NCBI RefSeq assembly: GCF_030345715.1
Contig: NZ_JAUASX010000002.1
Coordinates: forward strand, 248,001 to 312,000
Direction of reading: 5' to 3'
Source: Solimonas sp. SE-A11
Lineage (GTDB): Bacteria > Pseudomonadota > Gammaproteobacteria > Nevskiales > Nevskiaceae
DNA length: 64,000 nt
Part shown: in pieces, positions 16,436 to 23,001 of the stretch
How positions within the stretch are numbered: the first letter of the stretch is position 1
Layout: the number at the start of each line of letters is the position of its first letter
The notes under the pieces: model-generated
What the model saw: only the letters and a program-made list of their open reading frames with translations
What the model was told of the DNA's origin: nothing
Database searches by the model: none
Program-made: the position numbers and the translations under genes

Positions 16436-17518
16436 TCAAGGCTCCCCTGCTCCGGCCGCCGGGTTGCCTTCCACGCAAGGCAGCGAGGTGCCGGACTTTC
16501 GGTAGCGCTTGAGGAAGTCCCACACGGCTTCCGACGCGCTCATGGCGCGGGGCTCGATGAAGGCCGGCAGGTCCGGGTCGTCGGAGCCGCCGGGGTACAG
16601 GTGCTGCAGCCCCTGTATGCGGATATGACGTACCACGAGGCATCCCTCGGGATCGCGATAGTCATCCACCTCGTAGGGGAAGTCCTTGCCCTGGTCATAG
16701 GCTTTCGTTTCGCTGGGGGTCAGCGGGAATGGGCCCGTCCTCGATCCCGATGCGACCAGGTTGTTGGTCATCAGCCACTGCTGCACGGCGTTGTCACCGT
16801 TCACCGGGTAGATCGTGGTGTCCGCGTCGCCGTGGATTTCCAGCAGCGGGACTATGCGAGCACGCGGACCCATCGCCAGGTAAGCCAGTTGCGCCTGCAA
16901 GGCCGGGTTCGCCAGGGCCGGGATCAGGGGATTGGCGGCGTCGAGGAAGGTGGAGGCATAGGGGCCACCCGCGAGATTGGCCATGGCCGCGTAGAGGTCC
17001 GGGTAGGCGGCACCCAGGATGCTGGTCAGGAAGGCGCCGGACGATCCCCCCGTGACGTAGACCCGTTCCGGATCGACGGACCAGCGCTCCATCACCATGC
17101 GCGTCAGCCCGACGACGCCAGCGGCATCGCCCTGGCCGCGGGTCCATTCGGTCGGCAGGTAGAAGCGCCAGCAGACCAGCGGGTGGCTGTCCTGATCGAC
17201 GAAATCGGGGTAGACGACGATGAAGCCCTCGCGCTGGGCAATCTCGTCGAACAGGGTCCCGGCCTGCTGCAGCTCGGCGGTCTGGGCGCAGCCGTGAATG
17301 TTGACCACCACGGGCACCGGCGTGCCCGGCCTGTAGCTCGCGGGAATGTGCACCAGCGCCCGGTACTCGTTGATGCCGCTGCCGTAGCGGATCTCCACAG
17401 TCTCGCCACCGGCTGACCCGGATGGGGCCGTGGAGTCATGGCAGCCCGACAGCAACGCGGCCATGCAAAGAGTGACCAAAACCCATGTCCGGCTGGCACC
17501 CGCAATCACTGCATTCAT
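16436..17518 (-). CDS. secreted lipoprotein esterase, PHB-depolymerase-like (paralogue 1)
   Basis: A 360-residue alpha/beta hydrolase related to polyhydroxybutyrate depolymerases and feruloyl/acetylxylan esterases. The N-terminus has a lipoprotein signal with lipobox LLSGC (about residues 22-26). The oxyanion HGCAQ, nucleophile elbow GGSSGA, an Asp in HGDADTT and a late His in QHLYPGGSDDP complete the fold. The start ATG at 17518 has GAGGAAAAG upstream. It shares gene length, lipobox and the LMTNNLVASG...FPL and YPGGSDDP segments with the gene at 19160-20227, so the two are duplicates. The polymer or ester acted on is unknown. Its promoter carries TCCGGA repeats 20 bp apart. Confidence 0.85.
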   Translation of the reverse strand: MNAVIAGASRTWVLVTLCMAALLSGCHDSTAPSGSAGGETVEIRYGSGINEYRALVHIPASYRPGTPVPVVVNIHGCAQTAELQQAGTLFDEIAQREGFIVVYPDFVDQDSHPLVCWRFYLPTEWTRGQGDAAGVVGLTRMVMERWSVDPERVYVTGGSSGAFLTSILGAAYPDLYAAMANLAGGPYASTFLDAANPLIPALANPALQAQLAYLAMGPRARIVPLLEIHGDADTTIYPVNGDNAVQQWLMTNNLVASGSRTGPFPLTPSETKAYDQGKDFPYEVDDYRDPEGCLVVRHIRIQGLQHLYPGGSDDPDLPAFIEPRAMSASEAVWDFLKRYRKSGTSLPCVEGNPAAGAGEP

Positions 17519-17612: not shown

Positions 17613-17677
17613 ATTGTCCCGGCCGTGGAATGGGCTGCAAAGGTGTCCTTCCGGACGATTCATGTGATTTCCGGAAA
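17613..17677 (-). promoter_or_regulatory. promoter and operator of esterase 1 (TCCGGA direct repeats)
   Basis: On the minus strand, TCCGGA occurs at 17675-17670 and again exactly 20 bases downstream at 17655-17650. A -35-like TTTGCA follows, then GACAAT (17618-17613) after 17 bases. The same geometry (TCCGRM repeats 20 bp apart, about eight bases, then a TTGAA-type -35) occurs in the elements at 20773 and 22554. The spacing fits an AraC-family dimer. Confidence 0.45.
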
Positions 17678-17874
17678 CGCTACGTTGCCCAGCACGCCGC
17701 CTCCAGCGCATGAAAGGAGCAAAGATGACTTTCCCAAAATTTCACGCGAATATTGAGGCTTAGCGGCCGATCTGCTCGGCGAACGCGAACATGCCTCTGG
17801 ATACTGGGTGAACAAGCGTGGTTGTGATGTTCGGACACTCCAGGCGCCCCTGCGACGGATCGCGGTGACAGGAC

Positions 17875-18879
17875 ATGCAAATTTCCCGAAGCATCTACAG
17901 TGTGGTGCAGATGGTGGACACGGCAGCCGAATGCGGCCTGAGCACCCATGCCTGCCTGGCCGGCTCGAACATCGAGCCCGAGCAGTTGCTGCAACTGGAA
18001 TCCCAGATCTACCCGCAGCAGGAATTTGCCGTCATCGCCAACATCGTGCGCGAGCTTCCGCATGTGCCGGCACTGGGCCTGCGCATGGCGGCGCGCTTCC
18101 ACATGCCGGTCTATGGGGTGCTGACTTTCGCCATGTGCAGTTGTGCCACGGCAGGTGATGCCATCGACCTTGGCCTCAGCTATCACGAGCTGAGTTTCAC
18201 CCTGGTGGAAAAGCACCAGCAGGTGATCGGCAACGATCTGGTCTTCACCTTCGGCGATCGCCACATCCCGGCCCCGCTGCGCCAGATCATCGTGGAGCGG
18301 GACATGTTCGCCCTGCCCCGTGTCATGGACGAGGTGTTCTCGCGCCAGATGCCCAAGCGCCAGGTGCGCTTCGCCTTCAGCGCGCCGCCGCATGCGAAGC
18401 TCTATTCGGAACTTCTGGGCCTCGAACCTGAATTCGATGCGCCTGCGCATCAGATCGTGGTGGATGCGGATTTCCGGAAGATCCCCATGCCCCAGGCCAA
18501 CGCCGCCACGCTGCGGCATTGCCAGGCACAGTTGCAGGCCATCGTCGCCAAGCACAAGACCTGGGGCGGTACCTCGGGCCGGGTGCGCGACATGCTGCTG
18601 CGCCACCCCGCGATGGGCCCGGACATGGAAGCCGTGGCGGCGGAGCTGCGCATGACCTCGCGCAACCTGCGCCGCATGCTGGAGGCGGAGAACACATCCT
18701 TCCGCGAGATCGCGGACGAGGTGCGGCAGACTCTCGCCGAGGAATTGCTGGGCCTGGGGAAGTTCAGCGTGAAGGACGTCGCGGCCCGGCTGGGTTACAG
18801 CGAGGTGTCGAGCTTCACCAATGCCTTCAAGCGCTGGACCGGCCGCGCCCCGCGCGACTGGCGTTCAGGGCAACGCTAG
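17875..18879 (+). CDS. AraC-family transcriptional regulator (arabinose-binding-like sensor domain)
   Basis: A 334-residue regulator of the OruR/ArgR-like AraC branch. The N-terminal ligand domain (about 1-200) includes the typical PALGLRMAARFHMPVYGVLTFAM segment, and the C-terminal double HTH (about 235-334) includes VAAELRMTSRNLRRMLEAENTSF and VAARLGYSEVSSFTNAFKRWTGRAPRDW. It stands between two paralogous esterase genes and is divergent from esterase 1 across 356 bases. That gap also holds a tiny reading frame with a good ribosome site at 17710-17763. Its stop shares the four bases CTAG with the stop of the convergent LuxR gene. It is the natural candidate to bind the repeated operators of this island; the ligand is unknown. 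Confidence 0.9.
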   Translation: MQISRSIYSVVQMVDTAAECGLSTHACLAGSNIEPEQLLQLESQIYPQQEFAVIANIVRELPHVPALGLRMAARFHMPVYGVLTFAMCSCATAGDAIDLGLSYHELSFTLVEKHQQVIGNDLVFTFGDRHIPAPLRQIIVERDMFALPRVMDEVFSRQMPKRQVRFAFSAPPHAKLYSELLGLEPEFDAPAHQIVVDADFRKIPMPQANAATLRHCQAQLQAIVAKHKTWGGTSGRVRDMLLRHPAMGPDMEAVAAELRMTSRNLRRMLEAENTSFREIADEVRQTLAEELLGLGKFSVKDVAARLGYSEVSSFTNAFKRWTGRAPRDWRSGQR

Positions 18880-19127
18880 CCCCTGGCAGCTTCCAACGGC
18901 ACGAGGGCACTTTCACGCGCGATGCGGACGGCATCGCGCTTTCCGCTGGCGCCTAGCTTTCCGTAGATATTACGGAGGTGGCATTTCACCGTGCTGCGGC
19001 TGATGCTCAGCTCATGGGCGATATCGTCCGTGGAGCCTCCCGTCAGCAGACCTGACAACACCGCCTGCTCGCGCGAGGTCAACGGCTCCCTACCTCCGGC
19101 CATCACCTGCATCCTGCGCATCCGCAT
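18876..19127 (-). CDS. LuxR-type HTH-only protein
   Basis: An 83-residue protein that is essentially one GerE/LuxR helix-turn-helix: LTSREQAVLSGLLTGGSTDD, then IAHELSISRSTVKCHLRNIYGKL, then a short basic tail. A normal LuxR or MalT-like regulator would have 150-800 residues of sensor domain before it. The frame stays open upstream to 19787, but only by overlapping the esterase 2 gene out of frame, so the domain was either never attached or lost. Start ATG at 19127, 33 bases after the esterase 2 stop; it is likely co-transcribed. It may be an independent small regulator like GerE or a remnant of a larger one. Confidence 0.75.
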   Translation of the reverse strand: MRMRRMQVMAGGREPLTSREQAVLSGLLTGGSTDDIAHELSISRSTVKCHLRNIYGKLGASGKRDAVRIARESALVPLEAARG

Positions 19128-19159
19128 CACTCCCCGTCCGCCGGCATTGCCGCGCGAGC

Positions 19160-20227
19160 TCAAGACCGGGACTTTACGCAGGGCAGCGAGGTGTCCGACA
19201 GGCGGAAGCGCTTGAAGAAGGCCCAGGTCAGCTCCGCCCCGCTGGGCGCCAGCGGATCGGTGAAGCCGCGCAGTTGGGGGTCGTCCGATCCACCGGGCCA
19301 GTAGTGCGCCATCTCTTCGATCCGCACCTGTTCGAGAATGCGGCATCCATCCTCGTCCTGATAGATGTCGATGTGGTACGGATATCCACTCGGCGGCGTC
19401 ACATCGACGGTTTCCGTGGGAGACAGCGGGAACGGAGCGTTCAGGTTGCCGGACGCCACCAGGTTGTTCGTCATCAGCCACTGCCGGACGGCATGTACGC
19501 CACTCGCGGGCGTGGCGGCGGGGTCCTTGTCGCCCTGGATGTTGATGACCGGCAGTACGCGCGTGCGCGGGCCCATCGCCTGGTAGGCCGCCAGCGCCAG
19601 CAGTTCGGGACGCAGCAGCAAGGGGCCGAGGGGCTGGCCAATGCCTGCCAGGCCGATCCCGTAGGCGCCGGATTCCACCAGGCCGATGGCAGCATACAGA
19701 TCGGGATAGGTCGCGCCCATGATGCTGGTCATCCATCCCCCGGCCGACATGCCCACGATATAGACGCGCTCCGGGTCCACGTTCCACGTGGCCATGGTCT
19801 GGCGCGTGAGCTCCGCGATAGCCTGGGCATCTCCGACATCCCGCTGCATCTCCAGCGGGTTGTAGAAATGCCAGGACTGCAGCGGATGCTGGCCCAGGGC
19901 GCTATCGGTCTCGTGATCCGGATACATCACGATGAAGCGTTCACGCACGGCAATCGGATCGAACAGGTTCGACGCACGCTGCTGCTCGGCCGTGGTGTTG
20001 GCACCATGCAGGACCACCACCAGGGGCGCCGGATTGCCGGGCCGCAGGGAACCCGGCACGTAGACCAGGCTGCGGTACTGCCCGAAGGCGTTGGAGTAGT
20101 AGATCTCCGCGTTCGTGTCCGGCGGCTCGACCTCGTCCGATCTGCCGTTTGAACATCCGGCCAAGCAGAGCGCCAGGAGCCCGAAAGCAATTGCCAGCCG
20201 GCCATGCTGCCTGCCGATGACCTTCAT
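19160..20227 (-). CDS. secreted lipoprotein esterase, PHB-depolymerase-like (paralogue 2)
   Basis: A 355-residue alpha/beta hydrolase with a lipoprotein signal (lipobox LCLAGC, about residues 20-25), HGAN oxyanion segment, nucleophile elbow GMSAGG, Asp in QGDKDPAA and His in AHYWPGGSDDP. It is the paralogue of the gene at 16436-17518. The start ATG at 20227 has GGAGGAGAG upstream. It is likely anchored to the cell surface or the periplasmic face of the outer membrane and acts on an ester polymer or glycan ester; the substrate is unknown. It probably belongs to a unit with the unknown gene upstream (20378-20737) and the LuxR-type gene downstream. Confidence 0.85.
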   Translation of the reverse strand: MKVIGRQHGRLAIAFGLLALCLAGCSNGRSDEVEPPDTNAEIYYSNAFGQYRSLVYVPGSLRPGNPAPLVVVLHGANTTAEQQRASNLFDPIAVRERFIVMYPDHETDSALGQHPLQSWHFYNPLEMQRDVGDAQAIAELTRQTMATWNVDPERVYIVGMSAGGWMTSIMGATYPDLYAAIGLVESGAYGIGLAGIGQPLGPLLLRPELLALAAYQAMGPRTRVLPVINIQGDKDPAATPASGVHAVRQWLMTNNLVASGNLNAPFPLSPTETVDVTPPSGYPYHIDIYQDEDGCRILEQVRIEEMAHYWPGGSDDPQLRGFTDPLAPSGAELTWAFFKRFRLSDTSLPCVKSRS

Positions 20228-20377
20228 GTTTCTCTCCTCCCATGACTTTTTATGTGCCGTCAGGCCGCTTGCGCCGGAGAACGGCGCCGCGCTGCAGCGA
20301 TATCTGGAACTGGCCGGGCCCGGGAGTGGCTTGGCGCAGGAACAAAAGTACTCAAGAAGGCCGGCAAGGCCAATGGC

Positions 20378-20737
20378 TCAGCCCCCCGCGCGCGCCGGAA
20401 CTGCCGAAGCCCGTCGGCGCCCAAGCCTCGGCGGAGCCACGGTGCCGGCTGGCGATGCTGGTGCAGCCGGCTGGGCTTCCTGGGGGACAGCCACCCCGGT
20501 GATCATCTGGTAGACCCTCGATGCGTCGGCAAAGGAAAAGAAGTCGCCCACGGCGATCGCCGGCCGGCCCGACGCAAGTCCGAAGAGACACCAGAAAGCC
20601 CTGCCCCGGCTCGTGAATGCCATCTTCAATGCCGCATCGCGGCTGGCGCAGCGCTGTACCAGTCCGTTCTGCCCGTCCTCGTAGACGGGGCAAATCTCGT
20701 ATCGGGAAAATCGGTCGGCGGCCAAAGGCACTTCCAT
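20378..20737 (-). CDS. hypothetical protein, unknown
   Basis: A 119-residue reading frame with natural-looking composition: an ordered first part (SRYEICPVYEDGQNGLVQRC, then GRAFWCLFGLASGRPAIAVGDFFSFADASRVYQMITG) and a proline/alanine-rich tail. No signal peptide or known domain is recognised. It is supported by a promoter element at 20773-20846 placed 36 bases before its start and nearly duplicated before the beta-helix gene. A five-codon open frame (ATG at 20755) runs in frame into TGAATG at the start, so translation may be re-initiated. It may be the first gene of a unit with esterase 2. Confidence 0.5.
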   Translation of the reverse strand: MEVPLAADRFSRYEICPVYEDGQNGLVQRCASRDAALKMAFTSRGRAFWCLFGLASGRPAIAVGDFFSFADASRVYQMITGVAVPQEAQPAAPASPAGTVAPPRLGRRRASAVPARAGG

Positions 20738-20772
20738 TCATGCGGCAGACTGCATCGACACACCCTGCCGGC

Positions 20773-20846
20773 GCAGATTAGGAATTTGTGGAGCGCATTC
20801 AAATGCTCGCACCGGACGCGAGTTGTTCTTTCCGGCCATTGATGAC
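20773..20846 (-). promoter_or_regulatory. 74-bp promoter/operator element, copy 1
   Basis: This stretch is about 72% identical, without gaps, to 22554-22627 (53 of 74 bases by hand count). On the minus strand it holds CCGG and TCCGG repeats spaced 20 bp, then TTGAAT, 16 bases, and TAATCT, a good -35/-10 pair. The two copies lie in the same orientation before different genes, so this is a shared regulated promoter and not a coding duplication. Confidence 0.7.
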
Positions 20847-20890
20847 CCGCCGCGGCCTGCTGCATCGCAGCACCGCGGCGGGGATCCGGC

Positions 20891-22510
20891 TCAGTTCGGT
20901 TGATGGAAGCCGCGTGTCGGTGCGACGGCTGGCGACAGCGGATTACCGAAGTAGTCGCGCGCGCCGTTATCCGTGATGAAAGCACCCGCGCCCACGGCCG
21001 GTGAGCCAGGCAGCAGCCCGTAGCCCGCCACCGTGTAGAGGCCGTCCGGCGCCACCGTCAGTGGAGCGATCATCTGCGGGTCGGCGGTGATCTTGTAGGC
21101 GTCGGCCGGCTCGCCCGCCGTGTGATTGCCGAAGATGAGGTTGTGGCTGATCGTGGTGCCGCGGCCCTTCGGCTGTTCCCAGGCACCCGTACCGTGATTG
21201 ACGATCACGTTGTTCTGGAAGCTCCAGGTGTTGTTGTTGTCGCCGTCCCAGCCGAGCTGGAAGGTGGGGCGCGACGAGAGGCCCGGCGCGATATAGACCG
21301 TGTTGTTGTAGATCTTCGAGCCGGACAGCAGGCCACTGGAGAGCGTGAAGACGCCGTTAGTGACGAACGCGTCGTTGACGCTGAGGTTGTAGCGCACGGT
21401 GGCGTTCGAGCCGGAGAAGTTTCCGCCCATCAGCAGGACCATGCCGCCTTCGTTGTCGTGGCTGTAGTTGTACTGCACGATGGAGTTGTAGGCCATCAGG
21501 TCGACATCGTAGGCCTGGCCGTCGACGACGTTGTGGCGCACGCCGGAGACCTCGTTGAACTGCATGATGCTGTTCGTGGTCTTGGCGATGAACATGCCGA
21601 CGGTGCCCGGCTGGGTCGTCCCTGCCACCGTGACCAGGCCGGCCGTGTCGATGCGGTTGCGCTCGATAAGGTTGTTGATCGAGCCCGAGAGGATGATGCC
21701 GTCGCCCTCGATGTCCTTCAGCCGGTTGCCGGCGATCGTGACGTTCTTGCTCAGCATGGCCTGGTTCACGATGTAGAACAGGATGCCCGTCGAGTAGTCG
21801 TTGAAAGCGATGCCGGTGCGGCCAACACGCTCGATGACGTTGTCCAGGACCTGCACGCCATCGAAGCTACTGCCGCCGTTGGAGAGGCCGTTCATTACGT
21901 CGGCGATGACGGCGATGCCGCCGTTGGTCTGCGGGTTGGCGCCGGTGCAGACGAAGCAGCCGTTGACATCGTGCACGTAGTTGTCGCGGATGATGATGCC
22001 GGACCGGAGCTGACCGCTGGCGTTGTAGACCATGATGCCGCTGCGGTTGCTGCCCGGCTGCATCACGGTGCCCACGTTGTTCTTGCCCGTGTCGTTGGTG
22101 ACCTCGAGCCCGCTCACGGTCCAGTAGGAGACGCTCTTCAGCAGTACCGCGGCCCCACCCGCGCCACCACCGGCCACGTCGCGCCCGTCGATGATCGGGC
22201 GCGGGCCTTCGCCGTAGGAGCCGATGGTGATGGGATTGCCGCTCACGCCCGAGCCCTTGGGGTTTAGCTGTTCCACCCACTGCTGCCCGGCCCGCAGCAG
22301 GATCTTGTCTCCCGCCGAGAAGGTCGTGGCGTTGACCTTGGCCAGCGTCTTCCAGGGCGCTGCCTGGCTGGTGCCGGGATTGCCGTCCGCTCCGGCAGTG
22401 GCGTCAATGTAGTACGTCGTGTTCAAGGCGGATGCCGCCGTGGCGGCGAACAGCGCGCCCATGCCCATGAGAGCGCCAGCCAGCGCCCCGATCCTGCGAT
22501 TGCTACCCAT
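20891..22510 (-). CDS. secreted right-handed parallel beta-helix protein
   Basis: A 539-residue exported protein. A Sec signal peptide (about 1-28, ending ATAASA) precedes TYYIDATAGADGNPGTSQAAPWKTL, the usual start of DUF1565-type beta-helix domains. Repeating rungs such as VSGLEVTNDTG, IIIRDNYVHDV, VQVLDNVIERV, VTIAGNRLKDI and IYNNTVYIAPG then follow. The fold is used by pectate lyases, alginate and chondroitin lyases, and surface adhesins; no clear lyase active site is visible. The start ATG at 22510 has GGGAGGGAG upstream and a strong promoter element at 22554-22627. It is plausibly a polysaccharide-binding or degrading partner of the neighbouring esterases. Confidence 0.88.
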   Translation of the reverse strand: MGSNRRIGALAGALMGMGALFAATAASALNTTYYIDATAGADGNPGTSQAAPWKTLAKVNATTFSAGDKILLRAGQQWVEQLNPKGSGVSGNPITIGSYGEGPRPIIDGRDVAGGGAGGAAVLLKSVSYWTVSGLEVTNDTGKNNVGTVMQPGSNRSGIMVYNASGQLRSGIIIRDNYVHDVNGCFVCTGANPQTNGGIAVIADVMNGLSNGGSSFDGVQVLDNVIERVGRTGIAFNDYSTGILFYIVNQAMLSKNVTIAGNRLKDIEGDGIILSGSINNLIERNRIDTAGLVTVAGTTQPGTVGMFIAKTTNSIMQFNEVSGVRHNVVDGQAYDVDLMAYNSIVQYNYSHDNEGGMVLLMGGNFSGSNATVRYNLSVNDAFVTNGVFTLSSGLLSGSKIYNNTVYIAPGLSSRPTFQLGWDGDNNNTWSFQNNVIVNHGTGAWEQPKGRGTTISHNLIFGNHTAGEPADAYKITADPQMIAPLTVAPDGLYTVAGYGLLPGSPAVGAGAFITDNGARDYFGNPLSPAVAPTRGFHQPN

Positions 22511-22553
22511 CAGAGCTCCCTCCCTGGTGTGATGGTCCCGGTTGGGACGCTGC

Positions 22554-22627
22554 GCACATTAAGAATTCACGGGGCCGCTTCAAATGCTCGCGTCGGACGG
22601 CAATTGCTTAATTCGGACATTGACGAC
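22554..22627 (-). promoter_or_regulatory. 74-bp promoter/operator element, copy 2
   Basis: Near-duplicate of 20773-20846. On the minus strand TCCGAA and TCCGAC are exactly 20 bases apart, then eight bases, then TTGAAG, 16 bases, TAATGT. The predicted start of transcription is about 39 bases before the beta-helix gene. The two-helical-turn spacing is what AraC-family dimers bind. Confidence 0.7.
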
Positions 22628-22686: not shown

Positions 22687-23001
22687 ATGGGCCATCAGAT
22701 AACGCAGCGACACGATGTCATGGCCTGTGGCGTCGGCACCCTGGCCTTTGTCGACTGCAACCCCATCATCGGCGGGACGCCGCTGGTACAGCAGGTGCTG
22801 CAGGCCATCTACGGCAACGTACTGTTGGCCTGGAACCTGGGGCAATTGCCGATCTTCCTGCAGGTGGCCCCACAGCAGGCCGAGGCCCGCAAGATCTACA
22901 ACACCCACCTGTACAGCCAGGGCAACCAGGGCCACGACTTCACCACCGTGCTCACCGACACCGAGCGCGAGGCGATCATCGAATACCTGAAGACCCTGTA
23001 G
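22687..23001 (+). pseudogene. remnant of a c-type (di-haem, peroxidase/RoxA-like) cytochrome
   Basis: A 104-residue reading frame whose last 36 residues (IYNTHLYSQGNQGHDFTTVL, then TDTEREAIIEYLKTL) match the C-terminal signature of di-haem cytochrome c peroxidase-like and rubber-oxygenase-like proteins, which end ...GHEF..LSDxERxALIEYLKTL. No CxxCH haem site and no signal peptide is present, so at most the tail of the protein survives. The first 68 residues are not recognised. It may be a decayed member of the esterase/beta-helix island. An intact small protein is possible but less likely. Confidence 0.45.

Follow-up and report, generated by a model that had tools for sequence, protein, structure and literature searches.

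A direct-repeat operator-promoter element and its candidate AraC-family regulator before secreted hydrolase genes in Solimonas

Why do two genes of Solimonas sp. SE-A11 carry such similar promoters? The question arises in a 64-kb window (contig C12, positions 248001 to 312000, of the 4.94-Mb genome), which is the whole stretch of DNA analyzed here and which contains an island of esterase genes together with a gene for a secreted beta-helix protein and one for a protein of 119 amino acids (aa). The regions upstream of the latter two genes, at 22554 to 22627 and 20773 to 20846 on the minus strand, are identical at 53 of 74 bases without a gap, in agreement with the value of about 72% given in an earlier reading made from the letters of the DNA (the sequence-only reading). 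The best of 2,000 dinucleotide shuffles of the two upstream regions reached 41 matches, and the runner-up 74-bp match across the whole window reached 34; the likeness fades at about 76 bp. Very probably, the element belongs to a small regulatory circuit that has not been described before but is of a well-known general type. Its likely regulator is the AraC-family protein encoded at 17875 to 18879, which would bind these operators as a dimer and activate genes for secreted ester and glycan hydrolases. No prior description of this regulon was found in the literature searched.

In both promoters, a TCCG-core hexamer is directly repeated with a spacing of exactly 20 bp; TTTGAA follows after 7 bp, and 17 bp beyond it comes TAATCT in the 20.8-kb copy and TAATGT in the copy before the beta-helix gene. 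The 20-bp spacing and the TAATNT -10 hexamer had been recognized in the sequence-only reading, whereas its TCCGRA-like pattern does not hold for the distal hexamer of the 20.8-kb copy, which is GCCGGA. The two elements and a third, before esterase 1, are composed as follows.

22552 to 22627, minus strand: operator-promoter of the beta-helix gene, conserved in S. fluminis and Solimonas sp. BWSM_106; cores TCCGAA at 22612-22617 (distal) and TCCGAC at 22592-22597 (proximal), -35 TTTGAA at 22579-22584, -10 TAATGT at 22556-22561.
20771 to 20846, minus strand: operator-promoter of the 119-aa gene and probably also of esterase 2, conserved in both relatives; cores GCCGGA at 20831-20836 (distal) and TCCGGT at 20811-20816 (proximal), -35 TTTGAA at 20798-20803, -10 TAATCT at 20775-20780.
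17613 to 17684, minus strand: operator-promoter of esterase 1, in the region between esterase 1 and araC; cores TCCGGA at 17670-17675 and 17650-17655 (spacing 20), 8 bp, -35-like TTTGCA at 17636-17641, 17 bp, -10-like GACAAT at 17613-17618.

In 11 sites taken together, the repeats recur every 20 bp, with 11.9 of 24 matches at shift 20 versus 3.2 to 8.0 at the other shifts from 8 to 32. No sigma-70-like promoter in the region passes a consensus scan, which is expected of activator-dependent promoters. At araBAD (summarized in the GliR paper, PMC8151288) and at Pm, the activators AraC and XylS use a pair of directly repeated half-sites that lie upstream of the -35 hexamer and are separated by about two helical turns. 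Direct repeats with a 20-bp period upstream of a poor -35 hexamer thus point to the layout of an AraC-type activator, and two half-sites exactly 20 bp apart beside a weak -35 hexamer give a class II-type arrangement. The Solimonas element differs from araBAD and Pm in its spacing (20 versus 21 bp), its TCCGG core, the PF12625 sensor domain of the proposed regulator, and its secreted-hydrolase targets.

In the proposed mechanism, an AraC dimer would contact both TCCGGA-core half-sites, which face the same side of the helix at a distance of 20 bp, and, bound just upstream of the weak -35 hexamer, would recruit RNA polymerase. This would switch on secreted and surface-anchored ester hydrolases, a beta-helix protein resembling glycoside hydrolase family 136 (GH136), and the 119-aa protein together with esterase 2. 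The inducer would likely be a small product of these enzymes sensed by the PF12625 domain; as a guess based on the targets, it might be a hydroxy acid, a fatty acid, or a sugar that they set free.

Distribution of the element

Genomes were surveyed by pattern and profile searches. A pattern of the bases common to both promoters, with up to 3 mismatches allowed, occurs at only three places in the SE-A11 genome, namely, the two known promoters and C34:175406-175449, which carries TTTGAG and TAATGT at matching distances and lies 50 to 95 bp upstream of the start codon of another paralogous lipoprotein esterase gene, the third (esterase 3). Such a scan had been proposed in the sequence-only reading as a check on its regulon, with many unrelated matches counting against it; as this was the one extra match, the outcome favors the regulon.

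The island is also present in S. fluminis HR-BB (G001, locus L066) and Solimonas sp. BWSM_106 (G002, locus L065), both of which keep all three island sites and carry one extra site each. When 61 genomes were scanned with the pattern, matches with 0 or 1 mismatch were confined to these three genomes, and the new one, on contig C29 of S. fluminis, precedes the gene of a CBM60-containing secreted GDSL esterase, after which a GH16 gene lies on the same strand. With a profile trained on the seven sites known before, the GDSL site is detected with an E value of 4e-10, the following match outside the training set having 0.007. In a leave-one-gene-out weight matrix, the sites of the 119-aa, beta-helix, esterase 3, and GDSL genes outscore all 2.8 million background positions, and a further site appears in BWSM_106 before a second GH136-like beta-helix gene (54% identical). 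With a 12-site operator profile, the strong sites (E <= 4.2e-6) number exactly four in every one of the three genomes, and the next match (0.005) lies inside a coding gene; being trained on the sites that it recovers, this profile shows the absence of others and does not independently confirm those sites. A strict pattern gave 8 matches among 85 genomes of the order, all in the three Solimonas genomes, and 0 control matches; with this pattern, the element was not found in the other 82 genomes. Two profile matches in another genome, G006 (E = 0.005 and 0.4, 1.8 kb apart), the stronger of which is within a coding sequence, were judged to be due to chance.

In every case, the site precedes genes whose secreted products are of ester- or sugar-cleaving kinds, and mostly one AraC-type regulator gene lies beside it. 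The regulon of lipoprotein esterases, beta-helix protein, and small protein put forward in the sequence-only reading is supported by the extra sites before esterase 3, the GDSL esterase, and the second beta-helix gene, and it extends beyond the island. The likeness might nevertheless have arisen when a promoter segment was recently duplicated, or might mark an interspersed repeat, with the genes not being regulated in common, as the promoters of the 119-aa and beta-helix genes match beyond the repeats and hexamers too (55 of 76 bases) and may share one ancestral segment. This is very improbable, since each genome has only four copies, all of which are positioned and oriented to precede genes of related function, the two promoters are no more alike within a genome than between species, and the site comparison shows contact positions that stay constant while other positions vary.

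The weaker third copy reported by the sequence-only reading, before esterase 1, proved to be a nearly unchanged block in the three genomes. Its element, TTTCCGGAAATCACATGAATCGTCCGGAAGGACAYCTT, is identical in all of them save one C/T position, and in S. fluminis the element is kept and its surroundings are eroded. The standing of this candidate operator rests on that conservation. It sits between the divergent esterase 1 and araC genes, and an esterase 1 ATG at 17614 overlaps its -10 hexamer; more likely, translation begins at the lipoprotein start, 17518.

The candidate regulator and its rivals

Two regulator genes lie in the island.

17875 to 18879, plus strand: AraC-family regulator of 334 aa with a PF12625 N-terminal domain and HTH_18, the proposed operator binder (Pfam matches; orthologues in the site-bearing genomes).
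18879 to 19130, minus strand: stand-alone LuxR-type (GerE) helix-turn-helix (HTH) protein with neither a receiver nor a sensor domain, 3' of esterase 2 (Pfam match).

The AraC protein matches PF12833 (HTH_18, the C-terminal double HTH; E = 2e-17) and PF12625 (E = 1e-33), which places it in the AraC/XylS family. Its orthologues in S. fluminis (87%) and BWSM_106 (98%) are found in the two genomes that share the sites, and conservation to S. fluminis is 94% in the DNA-binding domain versus 83% in the N-terminal part. Orthologous targets in genomes without an AraC orthologue carry no site, namely, the beta-helix gene of G022 (82%) and esterase 2 of G006 and G037 (76 and 71%). The LuxR-type gene is present in BWSM_106; in S. 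fluminis, where every site is kept, its product was not found. Together, these observations point to the island AraC protein, whose role as binder of the operators is the best reading. As the genome encodes 26 AraC homologues (E <= 0.001), this role is one that we infer.

These homologues, and the presence of a LuxR-type HTH gene inside the island, leave room for the operator to belong to another AraC-family protein of the genome or to the LuxR-type protein. That is unlikely, as the latter was not found in S. fluminis, LuxR-type sites are usually dyads whereas the element is a direct repeat, the AraC gene is the sole regulator gene recognized in the island across all three genomes, and its 87 to 98% orthologues are restricted to genomes with sites. 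It is also quite unlikely that the AraC protein binds and mainly represses, or that the element is a shared type of sigma-70 promoter without a dedicated regulator. The -35 region, GAGCATTTGAA, is conserved as strongly as the half-sites, which would suit such a promoter type; however, the repeats lie upstream of the -35 hexamer and not across the -10 hexamer or the start, the consensus scan passes no sigma-70-like promoter there, and the esterase 1 and second beta-helix sites retain the repeats without CATTTGA. In addition, GliR, a characterized relative, activates glycerolipid genes from one site overlapping the -35 hexamer and one upstream of it (PMC8151288).

Several points weigh against activation by the island AraC protein. 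The proximal core ends 7 to 8 bp before the -35 hexamer and does not overlap it, whereas the araBAD site does. The 26 AraC homologues bear on the choice of binder, and the three site-bearing genomes form one clade, so that co-occurrence of sites and regulator amounts to few independent events. When its own gene is left out of the weight matrix, the esterase 1 site scores poorly, and 20 to 101 background positions do as well. Esterase 2 starts 150 bp beyond the 119-aa gene (20378-20737), which the 20.8-kb promoter precedes; it has no operator of its own, and the weight matrix gives none between the two genes. They probably form one operon, and control of esterase 2 by the 20.8-kb promoter thus assumes read-through. 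The AraC protein nonetheless remains the likely activator.

GliR (PA3027 of Pseudomonas aeruginosa, AraC family) is represented by NCBIfam model NF050186, which matches the island regulator with E = 6e-38; the score of 131 bits is below the equivalog cut-off of 570, and the protein was not classed as GliR. Compared by eye, positions 10 to 13 of GliR motif A, YYGGCGHTDTYSGMC (PMC8151288), form a TCCG-like core, as in CAnnnnnnGTCCGGA here. The GliR targets differ, being intracellular lipid metabolism genes and plcA, and a strict 20-bp direct repeat is not described there. VirS of Mycobacterium tuberculosis (PDB 8RCX), which matches the island regulator over residues 64 to 331 (E = 1e-8), controls the adjacent mymA operon from an intergenic region (PMC13234193); it is very distant, has other targets, and is described there without an operator sequence for comparison.

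The 5' region of araC (17808-17875) is strongly conserved in the three genomes though noncoding in the araC frame. Before araC itself there is only a weak site, the half-operator TGTCCGAACATCACAA at 17840 on the minus strand (1.4 bits), through which autoregulation is possible. Near the nearest AraC homologue (50%), in G003, scattered TCCG pairs and no recognizable operator were seen; one neighbor of this homologue is a lipase-like secreted protein that carries ricin-type lectin repeats, and the other, without a Pfam match, is read from its sequence as a putative alpha/beta-hydrolase lipoprotein. In two other genera (G006, L159:5946-9310; G037, L160:7782-11144), an esterase 2 orthologue and a second putative esterase lie head to head with an AraC-family regulator. 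These regulators, with PF12625 checked in that of G006, are 23 to 25% identical to the island AraC protein and have no operator in common with the island.

Target proteins and possible substrates

The products of the island targets are as follows.

16436 to 17518, minus strand: esterase 1, a lipoprotein resembling type 1 short-chain polyhydroxyalkanoate (PHA) depolymerases (family model, conserved residues).
19160 to 20227, minus strand: esterase 2, a lipoprotein of the same family (family model, conserved residues), in a predicted operon with the 119-aa gene.
20378 to 20737, minus strand: 119-aa protein of unassigned function with a small alpha/beta core (conservation, structure prediction).
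20891 to 22510, minus strand: secreted right-handed beta-helix protein related to GH136, with the Asp pair of DGQxxDxD kept.

Esterase 3 (contig C34) is a lipoprotein 61 to 62% identical to esterase 2. All three esterases score 185 to 210 bits against a cut-off of 150 in the extracellular short-chain PHA depolymerase type 1 model NF050058, which is a hypothetical equivalog model, and the lipobox Cys, GxSxG, and the catalytic Ser, Asp, and His are invariant. The closest solved relative of esterase 2 (residues 55 to 339, E = 1e-42) is LtPHBase (PDB 8DAJ), a Ser-His-Asp enzyme acting on polyhydroxybutyrate (PHB), polylactic acid, and polycaprolactone (PMC11544428). Unlike LtPHBase, the Solimonas esterases are proteobacterial lipoproteins with putative activity, and acetylxylan and feruloyl esterases are also among their relatives.

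The beta-helix protein, called secreted beta-helix in the sequence-only reading, can now be placed more closely as GH136-like. It aligns over most of its length with the GH136 lacto-N-biosidase LnbX (PDB 5GQC; E = 9e-29), with DGQAYDVD against DGQAWDAD, and keeps both Asp residues of the GH136 pair, seven apart, equal to the spacing of catalytic Asp 568 and 575 in ErLnb136 (PMC7335108); its substrate is putative. Known GH136 enzymes require a partner subunit (GH136I/LnbY), and none was recognized among the island genes in Pfam and NCBIfam scans, no dedicated genome-wide search having been made.

The 119-aa protein is conserved, and its small alpha/beta core is confidently predicted; a fold search gave no significant match among PDB or viral models. 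It has distant relatives in another genus and on contig C41 (L207:6014-6298), the latter beside helicase-like and methylase-like genes, which suggests a mobile-element origin. In the window, a 104-aa frame at 22687 to 23001 (plus strand) matches the C-terminal end of a RoxA-like (rubber-oxygenase-like) cytochrome of 805 aa with 52% identity and is probably a truncated remnant; this cytochrome is intact in S. fluminis (L158:3318-5732), about 2.6 kb from the GDSL esterase that carries a site. The S. fluminis GH16 gene (L158:7355-8311, minus strand), 185 bp downstream of the GDSL esterase gene on the same strand, is a possible further member of the regulon.

Given the PHB-hydrolyzing, acetylxylan/feruloyl esterase, and GH136 relatives, an acylated glycan comes into question as the natural substrate alongside a polyester. 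As a tentative suggestion, one regulator might run a surface system for an acylated glycan, a glycolipid, or a biopolyester, in which the esterases would deacylate, the GH136-like protein and, in S. fluminis, the CBM60-GDSL and GH16 proteins would attack the carbohydrate, and PF12625 would sense the product, while different lineages would have brought further genes under the operator (esterase 3, GDSL esterase, second beta-helix gene). The regulon has four sites per genome, a sharply defined operator, and only one leading regulator candidate, which makes it directly testable, and it supplies a concrete operator for a PF12625 subgroup of AraC proteins. It also connects a GH136-like protein and a GDSL esterase with the PHB-depolymerase-like lipoprotein esterases, which are uncharacterized and related to plastic-degrading enzymes, and this link narrows the search for the natural substrate of these esterases.

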